From positions 1-25,794 of the IMG/VR virus record IMGVR_UViG_3300027906_000136: a stretch of DNA of 25,794 bases. One strand, written 5' to 3'. The DNA comes from a virus. Below the pieces are notes generated by a model. The model saw only the letters and a program-made list of their open reading frames with translations. It did not search any database and was not told where the DNA came from. Made by a program: the position numbers and the translations under genes. Below, piece after piece: positions 2,950 to 18,895 of the stretch; within the stretch, counting starts at the first letter, position 1, and the number at the start of each line of letters is the position of its first letter.

Positions 2950-3187
2950 TTTGACACAACGACAGATCGACCGCCTTGACGACTACGAATACTCCCTCTT
3001 TCTCGCATATGGTGACCAATTCAAACCTACAAAGACAGTTCCTGCTAGAACAGGAAGCGATCAGCTGTGGGAGGCAAAGGCTGCACGATTCCATAGAGAA
3101 ACTCGAAGACAAATCCTACGCTTCCGCAAGCGTGTACGGGGTGTCATCAATCAGAGAAGCACTGCCTCATTTAGTGAAAACTGTTGA
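2942..3187 (+). CDS. possible overlapping ORF at the RNA polymerase start, 81 aa
   Basis: ATG 2942 overlaps the preceding stop as ATGACTAA, like the 1740 gene. The first 30 residues (MTNLTQRQIDRLDDYEYSLF and onward) look like natural protein, with an acidic helix. From about 3030 on it is read in a different frame from the RNA polymerase, whose conserved N-terminal region is clear there, and its basic C-terminal half (RRQILRFRKRVRGV) may only mirror that. It could be a genuine small gene overlapping the polymerase, a leader whose translation delivers ribosomes to the polymerase start, or chance. Confidence 0.35.
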   Translation: MTNLTQRQIDRLDDYEYSLFLAYGDQFKPTKTVPARTGSDQLWEAKAARFHRETRRQILRFRKRVRGVINQRSTASFSENC

Positions 3188-5357
3188 TGAAACCTTTTAC
3201 AAACTCAAGAATGGACAAGCTGGTAAGTATTACGCTGAGATCAGTGAACATCTAGACCAACTTGAACCACTTGCAATCTCAACCATTATCCTCAAGATTA
3301 CATTTGACAGGGTATTCAGCACACTTAAGGGAGCTAACCTCATCACACCTACAATAGTTGCGATAGGCTCGGCACTGGAGGCAGAATGTAAGTTCCGTTG
3401 GTACAAAGCAGAATATCCTGGATTGATGACATACATTGAAGACAAGTACTTTCACGAGGCTTGTGGCACAGCACAGAAGCAGATCATTGCGAGCCAAAAG
3501 TTTGGCGAGCGTGGTATCCGATGGAAGGGCTGGAGTATCAAAAGTAAAGCATCACTAGGAAGATGGGGGCTGTGTATAGTTATGGAGACCACTAACTGGT
3601 TCACCATCAACAAGCGTAAGACCCACCGCAAGCGTTATGAATACAGGGTAGTACCTACACCTGAGTTCAATGAGAGACGCACAGAGCTAATTAAGTCAGC
3701 TGAACTATTCGCTGGCATACCTTGGCCCATGCTCGTAATCCCAGACGATTGGGGGTATAATGAAGAGGGTGAAATCATCTATGGTGGCTACCTTACCAAC
3801 CGTATGATGAGAGGTCATGACCTTACAAGAAAGGGCAACCCCACCATAATACACGGAGAGACCCCAATGAACTTTTTAAACAAGTTACAGCGGGTGAAAT
3901 ACTGTGTAAATCTTCATGTACTGGAAGTAGCAGAGGAGATGAGGAGTAGAGGTAGAGTAATAGGTAAGTTTATACCTATAAGCCCCGCCACTAAACTACC
4001 ACGTCCCGCTGATGCAGATGATAATGAGCAATCTAACCTAGCTTGGAGACGAGCTATGGCAGAAGCCTATAACGCTGATCGTATCAACTTCAAGAGATCG
4101 GTCAGAACCAGAACACAACTAGAGGCAGCTGAGAAGTTTAAGGACGATGTCTTTCATCTCTGTTGGTCGTTTGACTACAGAGGGAGAGCATACCCTATAC
4201 CAGCCTTCCTCACACCACAAGATACAGACTTTGGTAAAGCTCTACTAAGGTTTGCTGATGAGGCTAGTGTGACAGATGAAGCAGAGTTATGGTTGTCTTT
4301 TCAAGTAGCCACAACATTCGGCCTCGATAAATGCACACTAGAGGACAGACACCAATGGGTGGCTGAGAACATAGACCTCATCACTAAAGTCGCTACTGAC
4401 CCTATAAGATACTTGTCTGATTGGGAAAGTGTTGACGAACCTTGGCAATTTATGGCTGCTTGTCATGAGTATTACCATTGCTGTATTAAGAAAGACAAAG
4501 AGACTACAGGGCTAATGGTTGCAGTAGATGCAACATGCTCAGGATTACAGATACTAGCAGGTCTTGCTAGAGATCGTAGTACTGCAGAGCTTGTGAATGT
4601 CGTACCTAGTGAAAAACCTAGTGACGCATACCAAGCAGTGGCAGATAAGGCTAAAGAGTTTCTCCCTACGTACATGCACCCTTGGATGGACAGAACCGTG
4701 TGCAAACGCACAGTGATGACCATACCCTACAATGCTACTAAAGATAGTAGTCGCAAGTACATACGTGAGGCATTACGTGAGAAAGAAATAGATCCAACTA
4801 AAGATGAACTAACTCAGATAGTCAATGCTGTCTATCAAAGTATGGACTCAATAGTTCCAGGACCTATGCAGGTAATGCGATGGATCAAGAAGCATGTCGG
4901 ACTTTACATCAGAAATGGTGCTAAAGAAGTTCAATGGGCCACACCATCTGGTTTCATAGTTAATCAAAAAAGAGATGACATTGAGACTACAAGGATGGAG
5001 CTACAGCTACTAGGACGTACAAGTATTAGACTACCTAATGGTAAATCTAAGCCAAGTCCTAATAAGCATAAGTCAAGCACTGCCCCAAACTACATACATT
5101 CATTCGATGCTTCGATCCTTCACAGATCATTTACAAAGTTCGATGAACCATTCACAGTTATCCACGATTCTGTTCTATGCAGAGCAGGAGACATGGGAAC
5201 ACTCAATCGCCTTGTGCGAGAAACCTACACCAATATCTTTTCTGAAGAATGTTGGCTCTCTCGATTTGCAGAGACCATACAAGCTTCCGAACCACCACCA
5301 ATCGTTGATACATTAGACCCCAAAGTCGTTTCCAATTCCACCTATTTTTTCTGCTAA
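3009..5357 (+). CDS. T7-like single-subunit RNA polymerase
   Basis: A DNA-dependent RNA polymerase of about 782 residues (T7 gp1: 883) expected to transcribe the middle and late genes. From the ATG at 3009, the catalytic aspartate in VDATCSGLQ is D507 (T7 D537). KRTVMTIPYN supplies K566 and Y574 (T7 K631 and Y639, same 8-residue spacing). IHDSV supplies D720 (T7 D812). The N-terminal part (LQRQFLLEQEAI) matches the T7 start of the N-terminal domain. An in-frame TTG at 2976 would add 11 residues; neither start has a clear Shine-Dalgarno. It is about 100 residues shorter than T7, mostly in the N-terminal half, so promoter recognition may differ. Confidence 0.95.
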   Translation: MVTNSNLQRQFLLEQEAISCGRQRLHDSIEKLEDKSYASASVYGVSSIREALPHLVKTVDETFYKLKNGQAGKYYAEISEHLDQLEPLAISTIILKITFDRVFSTLKGANLITPTIVAIGSALEAECKFRWYKAEYPGLMTYIEDKYFHEACGTAQKQIIASQKFGERGIRWKGWSIKSKASLGRWGLCIVMETTNWFTINKRKTHRKRYEYRVVPTPEFNERRTELIKSAELFAGIPWPMLVIPDDWGYNEEGEIIYGGYLTNRMMRGHDLTRKGNPTIIHGETPMNFLNKLQRVKYCVNLHVLEVAEEMRSRGRVIGKFIPISPATKLPRPADADDNEQSNLAWRRAMAEAYNADRINFKRSVRTRTQLEAAEKFKDDVFHLCWSFDYRGRAYPIPAFLTPQDTDFGKALLRFADEASVTDEAELWLSFQVATTFGLDKCTLEDRHQWVAENIDLITKVATDPIRYLSDWESVDEPWQFMAACHEYYHCCIKKDKETTGLMVAVDATCSGLQILAGLARDRSTAELVNVVPSEKPSDAYQAVADKAKEFLPTYMHPWMDRTVCKRTVMTIPYNATKDSSRKYIREALREKEIDPTKDELTQIVNAVYQSMDSIVPGPMQVMRWIKKHVGLYIRNGAKEVQWATPSGFIVNQKRDDIETTRMELQLLGRTSIRLPNGKSKPSPNKHKSSTAPNYIHSFDASILHRSFTKFDEPFTVIHDSVLCRAGDMGTLNRLVRETYTNIFSEECWLSRFAETIQASEPPPIVDTLDPKVVSNSTYFFC

Positions 5358-6285: not shown

Positions 6286-6917
6286 ACATTAATTTACCAT
6301 TCGCTTATGTCACTGGTAGCGATAAAATTGAATTTGATTTTACTGAGCTACGCAAAGACACACGTTATGTACTGAACGATGATCAAGTGTTACGAAATGA
6401 ACAGCTTGATTATTTGAAGGGGAAAACCCCAAAAGAAATGGTAACTGATCATTTTAGAATCTTAGAGGATTACAAAGACCTCAAGGATTTAATTCTAAGA
6501 ATGTTCAGTAGTTTCTGTACTGCAACTTATGGACGACCTTTTAAGTTCAAGATAAGTACTTCTTGGCTTACTAAATTACAGGAAGGTGATGCCATACAAC
6601 CACATAATCACGGTAATTGTTTCTACTCTGGTATCCTGTACTATGGTGACAATTATGTAGATGCTAGTGGTTTATGGTTAATGAATCCTTTATCAGGTAC
6701 TACATCTAATCAATTCGACCTTGGTAATGGAAGTCATCCAACACATGATTCCATGTATATAACTCCACAAGAGGGAGGACTACATTTCTGGCCATCTTGT
6801 ATACTACATTATGCCAAGAGAAATAGAAGTGAGGACAGAGTATCATTAGCATTTAACTTTATACTTACTGAACCCGTTTACAGTTTCGACTCATCATTTG
6901 ACCCTAGATGGATTTAG
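6282..6917 (+). CDS. 2OG-Fe(II) oxygenase family protein, 211 aa
   Basis: The C-terminal two thirds match phage 2-oxoglutarate/Fe(II) oxygenases. TSWLTKLQEGDAIQPHNHGN (93-112) carries the candidate metal histidines H108/H110, SGILYY is the next core strand, and FWPSCILHYAKRNRSEDRVSLAFNF (169-193) holds distal H176 and the 2OG-binding R186. The substrate is unknown; the cyanophage versions may hydroxylate proteins or nucleic acids. The gene sits between endonuclease I and primase, where T7 has lysozyme gene 3.5. Coupled to both neighbours (ATGA before, 10-nt overlap after). Confidence 0.75.
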   Translation: MNINLPFAYVTGSDKIEFDFTELRKDTRYVLNDDQVLRNEQLDYLKGKTPKEMVTDHFRILEDYKDLKDLILRMFSSFCTATYGRPFKFKISTSWLTKLQEGDAIQPHNHGNCFYSGILYYGDNYVDASGLWLMNPLSGTTSNQFDLGNGSHPTHDSMYITPQEGGLHFWPSCILHYAKRNRSEDRVSLAFNFILTEPVYSFDSSFDPRWI

Positions 6918-8500
6918 ACAATGAATCATCAACCTTCCTATATCACACAAGCTGTCCTAGCTGCGGTTCATCAGACGGTAATTCCGTATATGATGATGGA
7001 CATACTTATTGTTTTGTATGTAACCACTTTGATAGCGGGCAGCCAAGTGATGATTGTGAACGACCGCCCCAAAAGAACCAAACTATGTTACAAGGTCATC
7101 CTACCAAATTAAGGAAGCGAGGTCTATCAGAAGAGACCTGTCGTAAGTACCGTATCCACAAGGATGGAGAGACTCTACGCATGCACTACTTCAACAAGGC
7201 AGGGCAAGTGTGTGGAGCTAAGGTTAAAACTAAGGACAAAGGCTTCTGGATGGAGGGTAATAATACCGACCATCAACTTTTCGGGCAAAATTTATTTCCC
7301 GATAAGGGTTCAAGGCTTACTATATACGAAGGCGAGCTTGATGCAGCCTCTGGATGGGAAGCACAACCCAAGTGGCCTCATGTATCCATACCAAATGGTG
7401 CAAAGGCTGCGAAGAAGGCATTGCAGAGGGTGCTAGACCTCCTTCAGAACTATGAAGAGGTAGTACTGTTCTTTGATAATGACGAGGCAGGTAGACAGGC
7501 AGCACAAGAATGTGCAGAACTGCTACCCCCTGGAAAAGCAAAGATTGCAAGGCTTGAGAAGTATAAAGATGCTTCTGATGCACTACAAGCTGGTGATGGT
7601 GAAGCAATTAGACGAGCGATCTGGGATGCAAAGACTTATAGACCAGATGGTATCGTTGATGCTAAATCCCTGCTTGATGTAATTACCACACCTACACCCC
7701 CCGCTGATCATGACTACCCATTTCAAGGACTACAGCTCAAGTTGCACGGCATACGATATGGAGAGCTTATCACGATTACTGCAGGTTCTGGCACAGGAAA
7801 ATCCTCATTCTGTAGGAGTCTTGCAAGTCATCTTCTCAACAAAGGAGAACGGGTCGGCTACTTGGCACTTGAAGAATCTAACCGTAGGACGGCACTCGGA
7901 TTGATGTCTTCACAGCTAGGTAAACCTTATCATCTTGGAGAATATGAACGAACAGAACTCGAACACGCCTACAACAGTACTATTGCTAATTGGAATCTTT
8001 TTCTCTTCGATGGCTTTGGTAGCTACGACCCTGATACAATCTATTCACGCATCGAGTACCTTGCCTGTGGACTGGAGTGTCGTATTATATTCCTCGATCA
8101 CCTCAGTATTTTATTGAGCGGATTGGATGGAGATGAGAGACGTATGATAGATCAGACTATGACTAAGCTACGCTCACTTGTTGAACGTACAGGCATTACA
8201 CTGTTTCTTGTATCACATCTCAGACGTACCCAATCAGATCAAAACCATGAAGAGGGAGCTCGGATTACACTTGGACAACTAAGAGGATCAGCTGCTATTG
8301 CTCAGTTATCTGACACAGTAGTTGCTCTTGAACGTGACCAACAAGACCCAAGCAAACGAGATACTACAACTGTTAGAGTACTTAAAAACCGTTACTCTGG
8401 AGAAGTTGGTGTCGCAAATGAATTGATCTATGACCTACAAACATGCACCTTTGAAGAACGTGAAGCTACGCCCGACTTCAACCCAGCAACAGACTTCTAG
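6908..8500 (+). CDS. primase-helicase, gp4-like
   Basis: A 530-residue bifunctional replication protein. The zinc-binding primer-recognition domain has C16xxC19 and C35xxC38. The TOPRIM primase core has YEGELDA (E141) and FFDNDEAG (D190, D192). The RecA-like helicase domain has Walker A GSGTGKSS (293-300, K298), a Walker B-like RIIFLDHLS, and the conserved SHLRR and RGSAAIAQLSD segments. It ends acidic-aromatic (NPATDF), as in T7 gp4, where the tail contacts the polymerase. T7 gp4A has 566 residues. It unwinds DNA 5' to 3' and lays primers. The start overlaps the oxygenase by 10 nt. Confidence 0.95.
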   Translation: MDLDNESSTFLYHTSCPSCGSSDGNSVYDDGHTYCFVCNHFDSGQPSDDCERPPQKNQTMLQGHPTKLRKRGLSEETCRKYRIHKDGETLRMHYFNKAGQVCGAKVKTKDKGFWMEGNNTDHQLFGQNLFPDKGSRLTIYEGELDAASGWEAQPKWPHVSIPNGAKAAKKALQRVLDLLQNYEEVVLFFDNDEAGRQAAQECAELLPPGKAKIARLEKYKDASDALQAGDGEAIRRAIWDAKTYRPDGIVDAKSLLDVITTPTPPADHDYPFQGLQLKLHGIRYGELITITAGSGTGKSSFCRSLASHLLNKGERVGYLALEESNRRTALGLMSSQLGKPYHLGEYERTELEHAYNSTIANWNLFLFDGFGSYDPDTIYSRIEYLACGLECRIIFLDHLSILLSGLDGDERRMIDQTMTKLRSLVERTGITLFLVSHLRRTQSDQNHEEGARITLGQLRGSAAIAQLSDTVVALERDQQDPSKRDTTTVRVLKNRYSGEVGVANELIYDLQTCTFEEREATPDFNPATDF

Positions 8501-9020
8501 AGAGATCAACCTCGCCTTTGACATCGAGACCGATGGCATTGAGTCCAGCCAGATACACTGTATAGTCACACAAGACTTAGATACAGGACATGTGGAAGAG
8601 TACAATGATCAACCATCAAAGAACTACAGCGTTGTCAACGGAGTCTGTGAGCTAGAGATTGCTACCAACATCATCTCACACAATGGGATTATGTATGACG
8701 TACCACAGATCAAAAAACACTTTCCGTTTTTTAGTGGTAAAGCAAAGCACTGGGACACACTTATACTTAGTAGGTTCTTTCATCCTGACCTACTAGACAT
8801 AGACCTCAGACGTAAATGGCCTTACATGCCAGCTCGTCTGTATGGTTCACACAGCCTTGAAGCATATGGTTACAGACTACGCTGCTTTAAGGATGAGTTC
8901 GGCAAGACTACTGACTGGAAAGACTGGTCACAGGACATGCAGGACTACTGTAAACAGGATGTTGCTATCTTATGTAAATTATGGTCGCATTTTCAGAAAT
9001 CGCTGAAAGCGTTGTCTTAG
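8430..9020 (+). CDS. DNA polymerase, 3'-5' exonuclease part (split gene)
   Basis: The 196-residue product matches the proofreading domain of T7 gp5. FDIETDG (30-36) gives D31 and E33 (T7 D5 and E7), SHNGIMYDVPQI is the ExoII region and DYCKQDVAIL is the ExoIII-like aspartate region. The ORF stops at 9020 immediately after this domain. The polymerase domain continues in the -1 frame from ATG 8981 with a 40-nt overlap. The start overlaps the primase-helicase by 71 nt; no nearer start codon keeps the DIETDG motif. Expected to work with the polymerase ORF as a two-subunit enzyme, or to be fused by frameshifting. Confidence 0.9.
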   Translation: MTYKHAPLKNVKLRPTSTQQQTSREINLAFDIETDGIESSQIHCIVTQDLDTGHVEEYNDQPSKNYSVVNGVCELEIATNIISHNGIMYDVPQIKKHFPFFSGKAKHWDTLILSRFFHPDLLDIDLRRKWPYMPARLYGSHSLEAYGYRLRCFKDEFGKTTDWKDWSQDMQDYCKQDVAILCKLWSHFQKSLKALS

Positions 9021-10243
9021 AACACCAGATAGCACAGCTAATGGCAGAACAAAAGACCACTGGCTGGCCATTTGATGTACTCAAGGCACAGGAACTAGAG
9101 AACCAACTACTCACCGAGTTGGAAGGACTCAAGAAAAAGGCAGAAAACATATGCCATTTCGTTCCACACAACTTGTTCACTCCAAAGAGAGATAACAAGA
9201 AACAAGGTTACTTTGCTGGCTGCGAAATGCAACGGCTAAAGGAATTTAATCCTAGCAGTAGAGAACACATAGCATGGTGGTTCACAACATTTCAAAGTTG
9301 GAAGCCTACCAAACTCACACCGACTGGTAAAGCAGTCATTGATGAGACAGTTCTCAGAGAGATAGGAACAGAAGAGGCATTAGTATTTCTAAATATTCTG
9401 GTCATACAGAAGAAGTTAGGAATGTTATCACAAGGAACTAATGCTTGGTTAAAGTTGGTCAAGGATGGCAGACTTCACCACTCTTGCTTTATCGGTGCGG
9501 TGACTCACCGAATGGCACATTCACATCCAAACCTGGCACAAGTCAGTAGTGATGCGGATTGTCGTGAATTATTTGTCACTAAACCAGACTGGAAACTAAT
9601 CGACAGTGACCTAGCTGGTATCGAGCTTAGATTATTTGCACACTACCTCCACAGATATGATGGTGGAAGATATGCAAAAATCTTACTCGAAGAAGACATA
9701 CACCAAGTTAATGCAGACAAAATCGGGATCTCTCGCAGACAAGTTAAGACAATTACATATTGCTTCTTGTATGGAGGTGGCAACCAGAAGCTTGGACTCT
9801 CTTATGACAACATGTTATCCCCAGAAGCTGCAAAGAAGAAGGGGGCAGAGATTAGGAGAGCTTATCTGGATGCTGTTGAAGGTCTTGAAGATCTGGTTGA
9901 AGCTACTCGTAGAGTTGCTGAAAGAGGTAGCATACGTGCTATCGATAAACGCCCGATCATTGTGGACAAGGAACACAAAGCCTTGAACTGTCTTTTGCAG
10001 GGATCAGCAGCGGTCATCGCAAAGCGGTGGCTACTACTAACACATCAGAAGCTAGGTCATTTGACCCATGAGCGTTATGCTTTTGTCCATGATGAGCAAG
10101 TGTTAGGAGCACCCGTAGAAAATGCGGAGCAAATCGCTGACGTATGCAAACTATCTGCACTATTAGCTGGTGAATACTACAACATACGACTGCCAATTGA
10201 AGCTGATGCTCACATTGGTAACAACTGGCACGAGGTACACTAA
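8981..10243 (+). CDS. DNA polymerase A, polymerase part (split gene)
   Basis: A 420-residue polymerase domain. Motif A is DSDLAGIELR (D210, T7 D475), motif B is RRQVKTITYCFLYGG (K256), and motif C is VHDEQV (H370-D371-E372). IAESVVLEHQIAQLMAEQ matches T7 gp5 just after its exonuclease, and FNPSSREHI matches T7 in the thumb. Between the thumb helices only about 35-40 residues remain where T7 has its roughly 75-residue thioredoxin-binding insertion, so dependence on host thioredoxin is doubtful. No clear Shine-Dalgarno precedes ATG 8981; the overlap with the exonuclease ORF suggests translational coupling. Confidence 0.92.
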   Translation: MVAFSEIAESVVLEHQIAQLMAEQKTTGWPFDVLKAQELENQLLTELEGLKKKAENICHFVPHNLFTPKRDNKKQGYFAGCEMQRLKEFNPSSREHIAWWFTTFQSWKPTKLTPTGKAVIDETVLREIGTEEALVFLNILVIQKKLGMLSQGTNAWLKLVKDGRLHHSCFIGAVTHRMAHSHPNLAQVSSDADCRELFVTKPDWKLIDSDLAGIELRLFAHYLHRYDGGRYAKILLEEDIHQVNADKIGISRRQVKTITYCFLYGGGNQKLGLSYDNMLSPEAAKKKGAEIRRAYLDAVEGLEDLVEATRRVAERGSIRAIDKRPIIVDKEHKALNCLLQGSAAVIAKRWLLLTHQKLGHLTHERYAFVHDEQVLGAPVENAEQIADVCKLSALLAGEYYNIRLPIEADAHIGNNWHEVH

Positions 10244-10965
10244 TGCTATTAATTGACTCTGATTTCCTAGCTTACAAGGCTGCACAAGCCTGTGAGATCG
10301 GTATAGATTTTGGAAATGATGTCATCATATCTCAGTCACAGTTCAGTGATGTTCTCAGAGTATTTGAGAGGGAATTGAACAAGGTAACTAAAGCTATGAT
10401 GGATGATGACTTTATACTATACTTTTCAAGCACTAAGAATTTTAGGAAGAAAATTTTTCCCGATTACAAGGGACATCGAAACAAGCGTAAGCCCCTTGGC
10501 TATAGACGTTTAGTAAATTACTGTAGAAAAAACCATAAATTTAAATTAATCGAAGGGTTAGAAGCTGATGATACTATTGGCATCGAAGCAACTCAGTTTG
10601 CAGACCCAAACAACATTGTTGTCAGTCCAGACAAGGACATGAGACAGATACCTAGTACGCTATGGAATCTAACAGGTGATGTTGTTGAGATAACTAAAGA
10701 TGATGGAGACCGTTGGCACTTAGTTCAGACACTTTCTGGAGATCCCACAGATGGGTACTCTGGTTGCCCTGGAATAGGAGTCAAGCGAGCTACAGAGTTA
10801 TTAGACAAGAACGAAAACAAGTGGGAGGCAGTGTGTAAAGCCTATAGAGATAGAGGGTTATCAGACGATGACGCTTTGCTCAACGCACGTTTAGCCAAGA
10901 TCCTACAACATACTGACTACGACTATGACCGCCAAGAACCAATCCTATGGGCCCCAGTATTATAA
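10243..10965 (+). CDS. 5'-3' exonuclease, gp6-like (FEN family)
   Basis: A 240-residue flap/5' nuclease. Metal ligands typical of the family are all visible: DSDFLAYKA (D5, D7), the arch region with YKGHRNKRK (75-83), EGLEADD (E107, D109, D110), SPDKDM (D130, D132) and GDPTDGYSGCPGIG (D167, D170) with the helix-hairpin-helix. T7 gp6 removes primers and degrades host DNA into nucleotides for phage synthesis. The start shares a TAATG junction with DNA polymerase. Confidence 0.92.
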   Translation: MLLIDSDFLAYKAAQACEIGIDFGNDVIISQSQFSDVLRVFERELNKVTKAMMDDDFILYFSSTKNFRKKIFPDYKGHRNKRKPLGYRRLVNYCRKNHKFKLIEGLEADDTIGIEATQFADPNNIVVSPDKDMRQIPSTLWNLTGDVVEITKDDGDRWHLVQTLSGDPTDGYSGCPGIGVKRATELLDKNENKWEAVCKAYRDRGLSDDDALLNARLAKILQHTDYDYDRQEPILWAPVL

Positions 10966-17501: not shown

Positions 17502-17858
17502 ATGAAAAAATTTATTGTACTTACAGCAGCAGCTGCAATGTCATCACCAGTTCTAGCACGTCCTTACGTTAACGTAGAGACTAGAGCTAAGTTCACTGGT
17601 ACGGATTACACATCAAGAGCAACAGACCTACACATAGGTTATGAAAGCAAAGTGAATGACTTAGCTTGGTACATCCAAGGTGGTAAGACACTTAATGCTG
17701 CCGATGGAGCAGACTCTGATTCTAACTGGTCTGGTAAAACAGGAGCTAAATTACCTGTAACAGATAAGTTAGGTATTTATGGTGAACTAAACTTCGCACA
17801 AGTTGAAGATGCTGATAATAACTGGGGTACAAAATTAGGAACTAAGTTTACTTTCTAA
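17502..17858 (+). CDS. secreted beta-strand protein, putative outer-membrane barrel, 118 aa
   Basis: The N-terminus ([19 protein letters not shown]) is a classical signal peptide with basic n-region, hydrophobic core and a VLA cleavage site, leaving about 99 mature residues. These alternate polar and hydrophobic residues in several short strands ([45 protein letters not shown]), and the chain ends [11 protein letters not shown] with a terminal Phe, the usual outer-membrane insertion signal. It resembles a small porin-like or OmpW-like barrel, perhaps host-derived. The stop shares its last base with the psbA start (TAATG), so it should be co-expressed with D1. It could alter the infected cell's surface; this is inference. 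Confidence 0.6.
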
Positions 17859-18895
17859 TGGCAACAATCCAACTCAATAGAGAAGCAACTTCCAGTAACT
17901 GGGAGAAGTTTTGTGAGTGGGTAACTAGCACCGAGAACCGTCTCTATGTGGGATGGTTCGGTGTTATTATGATACCTTGCTTACTAACTGCTGCGACTTG
18001 CTTTATTCTCGCCTTTATTGCTGCACCTCCTGTGGACATAGACGGCATACGTGAACCAGTATCTGGCTCTTTACTCTATGGAAACAACATCATATCTGGA
18101 GCGGTCGTACCCTCCTCAAACGCAATCGGACTACATTTCTATCCCATCTGGGAAGCAGCAACACTTGACGAGTGGCTCTATAACGGAGGGCCATATCAAC
18201 TTGTCATCTTTCACTTCCTTATCGGTGCAGCATCTTACATGGGACGCCAATGGGAACTTAGTTATAGACTAGGCATGCGTCCTTGGATCTGCGTAGCTTA
18301 CTCAGCTCCATTATCAGCTGCCTTTGCAGTATTCTTAGTCTACCCTTTCGGACAAGGGAGTTTTAGTGATGGCATGCCTCTTGGTATTTCTGGCACTTTT
18401 AACTTCATGTTCGTATTCCAAGCAGAGCACAATATTCTTATGCACCCTTTCCATATGGCAGGTGTTATTGGGGTATTCGGTGGGGCTCTTGCCTCTGCTA
18501 TGCACGGAAGTTTGGTTACGTCTTCTCTTATTAAGGAGACAACTGCTCAAGAGTCTCAGAATTACGGTTATAAATTTGGACAGGAAGATGAAACATACAA
18601 CATCGTTGCAGCACACGGCTACTTCGGGAGGCTCATTTTTCAATATGCAAGTTTTAACAATTCTCGCTCTTTACATTTCTTTTTGGCTGTGCTCCCCGTG
18701 GTTGGCATATGGCTTACCTCTATGGGGATAGCTACTATGGCATTTAACCTTAACGGATTTAACTTTAACCAATCGGTTGTTGATTCTAATGGTAAGGTTA
18801 TCCCCACATGGGCTGACATAGTCAACAGACAGAACTTAGGATTTGAAGTTATGCACGAGCGTAATGCTCATAACTTCCCGCTAGACCTCGCATAA
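17858..18895 (+). CDS. psbA: photosystem II D1 protein
   Basis: A near full-length D1 reaction-centre protein with five transmembrane helices; one residue longer at the N-terminus than the standard numbering. Visible key residues: Y162 (redox-active YZ), D171 (SDGMP), E190 and H191 (QAEHN), H199 (P680 ligand), the [12 protein letters not shown] quinone loop, and C-terminal manganese ligands H333/E334, H338, D343 and A345 ([13 protein letters not shown]). Position 131 is Gln, the form found in low-light host D1. The ORF stops right after the mature C-terminal Ala, so the extension removed by CtpA is absent. It sustains photosynthetic electron flow during infection. The stop shares TAATG with the next ORF. 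Confidence 0.98.

Follow-up and report, generated by a model that had tools for sequence, protein, structure and literature searches.

A T7-type DNA polymerase probably encoded by two overlapping genes in a clade B cyanopodovirus

The DNA polymerase of the window, a term used here for the whole 25,794-base IMG/VR virus fragment that was analysed, is very probably encoded by two overlapping genes that are translated into two separate proteins, a state that would have arisen once and in which the overlap would be kept by selection. The product is likely to be a two-subunit replicase of the T7 type. The split itself is already known and the window is a further case; new, as far as checked, are the signs from comparison that an internal start codon is under selection, and three insertions at the junction of the two genes. 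As an ecological marker for these phages the polymerase gene is the standard choice, and clade B is reported as the more abundant group of T7-like cyanophages in the sea.

The polymerase locus

The window has a T7-like gene order and carries psbA. It belongs to an MPP-B-type ("clade B") cyanopodovirus, as seen from two features, its position in the polymerase tree within the split clade and the presence of psbA. The best DNA match among annotated phages is 72% over just 21% of the query. The features of the locus are as follows.

6908..8500, + strand: T7 gp4-like primase/helicase, neighbouring gene (Pfam DnaB_C, Toprim, Helic-prim_T7_N)
8460..9020, + strand: predicted DnaQ/RNase H-fold 3'-5' exonuclease subunit, 186 aa from GTG (tblastn to T7-like exonucleases; PDB match; model; start conserved in relatives)
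8520: DxE motif of the exonuclease
8679: exo II motif, HNGIMYD
8946: exo III motif, YCKQD
8975..8977, + strand: TAA in the polymerase frame, two codons 5' of the polymerase start (sequence)
8981..8983, + strand: predicted polymerase start codon, which takes its first letter from the third position of an exonuclease Leu codon (8979-8981) and its TG from the Trp/Cys codon that follows (8982-8984)
8981..9020, + strand: dual-coding overlap of 40 nt, exonuclease C-terminal helix and polymerase N-terminal extension
8981..10243, + strand: predicted family A DNA polymerase catalytic subunit, 420 aa from ATG (Pfam PF00476, E 2.5e-33; PDB match to T7 gp5; model)
9018..9020, + strand: exonuclease stop TAG, across the polymerase Leu13-Glu14 codons (YTA-GAR)
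9608: polymerase motif A, DLAGIELR
9746: polymerase motif B, K..TY
10088: polymerase motif C, HDE
10243..10965, + strand: T7 gp6-like 5'-3' exonuclease, neighbouring gene (Pfam 5_3_exonuc_N), its start overlapping the polymerase stop
17858-18895: psbA

Two open reading frames, 8430-9020 and 8981-10243, share 40 nt, the polymerase being in the -1 (+2) frame. All the exonuclease motifs (DxE, exo II and exo III) and polymerase motifs A, B and C are intact. A reading made earlier from the sequence only had described this arrangement, and its coordinates and motifs were all confirmed. One point is to be corrected: the exonuclease is more likely to start at GTG 8460 than at ATG 8430. In most close relatives the position of ATG 8430 holds no start codon, whereas ATG or GTG is present at that of 8460. 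Over 8430-8500 the 3' end of the primase/helicase gene is overlapped by the 5' end of the exonuclease frame, which in this lineage places the likely GTG 8460 inside the helicase gene.

AlphaFold models were made of the single chains from alignments of 48 relatives. The exonuclease model (pLDDT 93.9) has T7 polymerase 6p7e as its best fold match, with a TM of 0.78, and in a PDB sequence search the exonuclease matches T7 gp5 residues 4-177. The polymerase model (pLDDT 86) also has T7 polymerase as its best fold matches, with a TM of about 0.75. A long C-terminal helix, residues 146-173, passes through the overlap in the exonuclease model, and the first helix of the polymerase model starts at residue 9. 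These helix positions place the split in the linker that follows the last helix of the exonuclease and precedes the first helix of the polymerase.

Elsewhere in the window, a putative 2OG-Fe(II) oxygenase gene (PF13759; 6282-6917) has endonuclease I on one side and the primase/helicase on the other, an unusual cargo site for the T7-like order. A predicted beta barrel like a cyanophage outer-membrane protein (PF24653; 17502-17858) lies immediately 5' of psbA. Promoter- and terminator-like sites in the region were not in excess of those in shuffled sequences, and no plasmid copies were found when these were looked for.

Constraint on the polymerase start codon

Five collection scans gave 281 split and 81 fused loci, some of them repeats of one contig, and the split loci contain 190 distinct junctions (180-nt). 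In the window the frames overlap at an L-[WC] junction in the -1 relation. At every uninterrupted junction (275/275) an NTG codon is present at the identical base, ATG in 206 and TTG in 69. The exonuclease Leu codon under the start is solely CTA, TTA or CTT; CTC, CTG and TTG, which make up about 41% of the Leu codons in these genes, are never used there. The exonuclease residue over the start is Trp in 139 and Cys in 51 of the distinct split junctions, against nine kinds (Y, A, F, V, W, S, L, C and H) at the same place in the 81 fused relatives. Trp and Cys are chemically dissimilar, and their codons have TG in common.

Base changes were counted per column by parsimony on the tree for 29 conserved Leu columns in both genes. 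The start-forming Leu shows 20 first-base and 5 third-base changes (binomial p 3e-6), while the third-base share of changes at the other Leu columns averages 0.66. It is one of two outliers among the 29 columns, the other being the Leu that forms the exonuclease stop. Base -3 to the start is A in 98/107, because the preceding Lys codon is kept as AAA. Together these patterns strongly support a polymerase start codon conserved for its own sake, as internal initiation would predict.

The chief alternative is a programmed -1 ribosomal frameshift within the overlap that would make a T7 gp5-like fusion polymerase and leave the short exonuclease as a by-product. The frame relation is -1 in every case, as such a slip would have it, and the exonuclease frame stays homologous to the fused relatives beyond the polymerase start (H-F-x-P-x-L). 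The frozen start codon argues the other way, since a slip inside the overlap would not need one. In addition, the linker of the fused product would be about 4 residues shorter than that of the fused relatives.

Initiation context and frameshift signals

A Shine-Dalgarno-like sequence at the polymerase start was found in only 2/107 loci, and a Shine-Dalgarno-driven start was therefore dropped. The start lies in an A-rich stretch, and several other starts in the window look similar by eye (taaacATG, ttaattATG, aactATG). The folding energy in 50-nt windows is weakest at the start, with a mean of -6.9 versus about -11 kcal/mol around it, and the start is less structured than the locus's own mean in 106/107 loci.

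Genes with a programmed -1 frameshift have a zero-frame heptamer before the stop and a downstream RNA structure, and neither was found. No in-frame -1 slippery heptamer is present in the window's overlap, as the earlier reading had noticed, and across 129 loci the stretch from the polymerase start to the exonuclease stop contains none; slippery heptamers turned up in 2/129 loci, with no conserved site. RNAalifold, a pseudoknot-free model, gave zero pairs and no consensus structure for 30 aligned sequences from -33 to +230. A frameshift upstream of TAA 8975-8977 is barred in the window because that codon closes the polymerase frame, and a polymerase-frame stop lies within 6 nt upstream of the start in 47/129 loci. 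Synonymous change is normal in exonuclease codons 139-152, upstream of the start, which argues against a hidden slippery or Shine-Dalgarno element there.

In polymerase codons 25-74 (9053-9202 in the window) synonymous change is 0.76 of normal (p 3e-4) across the clade, with no conserved RNA structure.

Insertions at the junction in three relatives

Three relatives, each on its own branch within the split clade (L206, L278 and L335), carry extra DNA at the junction. All three are metagenomic contigs in which polymerase activity is predicted, and their flanks are normal, with the primase/helicase upstream and the gp6-like exonuclease downstream. In L278 the junction ATG serves an HNH ORF (2166-2477), and the polymerase has a new start at ATG 2449 (MRPTIPEWVDLEH). 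L206 has an HNH-related remnant (2980-3332) in two frames, its reading frame broken, followed by the polymerase, MKTTFPDWVKLEH. The HNH-like genes of the two are 63% identical across 80 aa. A group I intron at the L206 junction was considered and rejected, Rfam giving no credible match. In L335 a C5 cytosine methyltransferase ORF (3028-3867) lies exactly between the exonuclease and polymerase genes, its start overlapping the exonuclease end, and the polymerase starts at ATG 3842 (MKPLPPLPDWVALEH).

The polymerase N-terminus in all three is Met-initiated and has the same form as in the uninterrupted phages. Since the insert separates the two parts, a -1 slip could not fuse them. The residue after Leu in L335 is L (KLLEHF), neither W nor C, the constraint being lifted because the polymerase start has moved.

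With the frozen start, these insertions give strong comparative support to the separate start at ATG 8981 and the two-subunit replicase that the sequence-only reading had suggested. There is no need for the unusual frameshifting that it listed as an alternative, and the comparison disfavours it. As the sole explanation a programmed slip is improbable, though a low level of frameshifting, or a minor fused product, beside the separate proteins is possible.

Maintenance of the exonuclease

The exonuclease stop shows a constraint of the same kind as the polymerase start. The third base of polymerase Leu13 is A in 95/104, and this stop-forming Leu has 25 first-base and 6 third-base changes (binomial p 1e-7). 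Leu13 is YTA in 2/11 loci with an earlier exonuclease stop versus 113/118 others (Fisher p 5e-9, a value that ignores relatedness). The stop codon itself is thus maintained, with the constraint on Leu13 lost where an earlier stop is present.

A split could have relaxed the constraint on the exonuclease domain and left it a decaying remnant beside a polymerase subunit that functions alone, an idea that drew support from no tool result. It is very unlikely, given that the exonuclease catalytic residues are invariant in 48 diverse relatives, the stop is maintained and the model is confident and T7-like.

Recurrence and origin of the split

All 281 split loci fall within the clade, which contains no fused locus, an arrangement far beyond chance. 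The overlap is 34-91 nt long, with a mode of 40; the 91 nt of one contig, L097, come from an in-frame insertion that leaves both frames open. The same break is found in the isolates P-SSP7, S-TIP37, S-SBP1, 9515-10a, DSL-LC07 and others, and in contigs from many samples, one of which (L023) has a junction identical to that of the window.

In a maximum-likelihood tree of 74 polymerases one branch separates the split from the fused rows, with an SH-aLRT of 98. The fused polymerases are those of T7, clade A (P60, Syn5, S-TIP28 and SS120-1) and more distant marine relatives, and because all of these are fused the split is the derived state. In the alignment, exonuclease motif III and the conserved LEH of the polymerase lie 13 nt closer together than they do in clade A, which accounts for the change of frame. 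The computation shows that the split of the clade is real and ancient and has a single origin.

Some database records mislead on this point. The PCR-derived records EF535232 and EF535233, for the polymerase genes of S-CBP1 and S-CBP3 (L138, L139, L142 and L143), read as a single ORF owing to one surplus base in the overlap of each; the genome records of these phages lack that base and are split. The S-CBP1 genome was Sanger-sequenced (PMC4646655). A fused gene in clade B should not be concluded from these two records. In the genome records of NATL2A-133, P-GSP1 and S-RIP1 (L010, L015 and L020) the reading frame breaks at a homopolymer run of A near polymerase codon 275. The idea of a second recoding site there was dropped in favour of a probable homopolymer error (undercall), since a near twin of S-RIP1, L091, has a longer A run.

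A sequencing or assembly indel in an ordinary single-ORF gene, which the earlier reading had listed as an alternative and for which those two single-ORF records and the homopolymer errors elsewhere in the gene might be cited, has practically no chance of being right when isolates and hundreds of contigs are broken at the same point in the same frame, the L023 junction is identical and Sanger-sequenced S-CBP1 is split as well. The comparison with related cyanopodovirus polymerases that the reading had proposed has in this way shown the split to recur throughout clade B.

Proposed mechanism and significance

Under the two-gene reading, the first gene would give a proofreading 3'-5' exonuclease subunit that ends at TAG 9018-9020, and the second a family A polymerase subunit with its own initiation at ATG 8981, within the exonuclease coding sequence. 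Initiation would occur without a Shine-Dalgarno sequence, at a place that is rich in A and unusually free of structure. The split would have happened once, in a fused T7 gp5-like ancestor, when the interdomain linker lost about 13 nt net (or underwent equivalent indels), and selection would have held the dual-coding overlap since. The two chains may form a single replicase that functions as T7 gp5 does, the exonuclease acting in trans.

This points to a replicative family A polymerase that can do its work while the proofreading domain is a protein of its own, a state fixed across a whole clade of abundant ocean viruses. Records that join the two polymerase frames would then be wrong gene models. 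The two-gene reading, a choice that the P-SSP7 record had left undecided, is now likely and can be tested directly.

A more tentative extension is that clade B might have an obligate two-chain T7-type replicase whose proofreading subunit, made separately, can act or dissociate in trans. If true, this would be the equivalent, among family A polymerases, of the Pol III alpha/epsilon pair, and a change that became fixed at the origin of clade B along with the lack of a phage thioredoxin and that contributes to the slower infection cycle of the clade. The split state coincides with the boundary between clades A and B, at which latent period and burst size differ (PMC9381782), a correlation only, as there was one transition.

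Comparison with known systems

A passage on P-SSP7 proteomics speaks of having "confirmed" a "putative frameshift or split variant" (PMC3350473), and some polA genes of a cyanophage group have been described as having a frameshift mutation (PMC6370689). A limited literature search found no paper that decides between split and frameshift. In the OM43 phages MEP401/402 a family A polymerase is also in two ORFs, but the break there is within the polymerase domain, around a small inserted ORF, and an intron is suspected (PMC10580990).

T7 gp5 (PDB 1t7p, 6p7e) is the best sequence and fold match for both halves. The window has the family A fold with motifs A, B and C and the 3'-5' exonuclease residues of T7 gp5-like polymerases, and its catalytic motifs are alike, including the motif B Tyr. 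T7 gp5 is however one chain, and the window has two, from ORFs in different frames. Another difference is in the thumb, where the thioredoxin-binding insertion, 66 residues in T7, is mostly missing in the window at about 26, some 40 residues shorter by alignment. The clade A cyanopodoviruses named above are the sister group, with the same domain order and shortened thumb as the window, but with the polymerase in a single ORF. A thioredoxin gene is present in most clade A phages and not in clade B (PMC9381782).

The nearest annotated isolates are Tangaroavirus 9515-10a, P-SSP10, P-SSP6, NATL2A-133 and P-SCSP-R27W, with polymerases 73-75% and exonucleases about 67% identical and the same 40-nt overlap. 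The window represents a lineage adjoining Tangaroavirus, one without isolates in the collections searched. The Prochlorococcus phage P-SSP7 (AY939843; ORF17A/17B) and S-TIP37 (MH540083; STIP37_17A/17B) resemble it in the split, the 40-nt overlap and the position 3' of the primase/helicase, their polymerase subunits being about 52% identical to that of the window. The GenBank notes of both leave the choice "split variant or frameshift" unmade, which keeps a frameshift among the annotators' options; where those records chose neither, the comparative evidence given here decides for the split.
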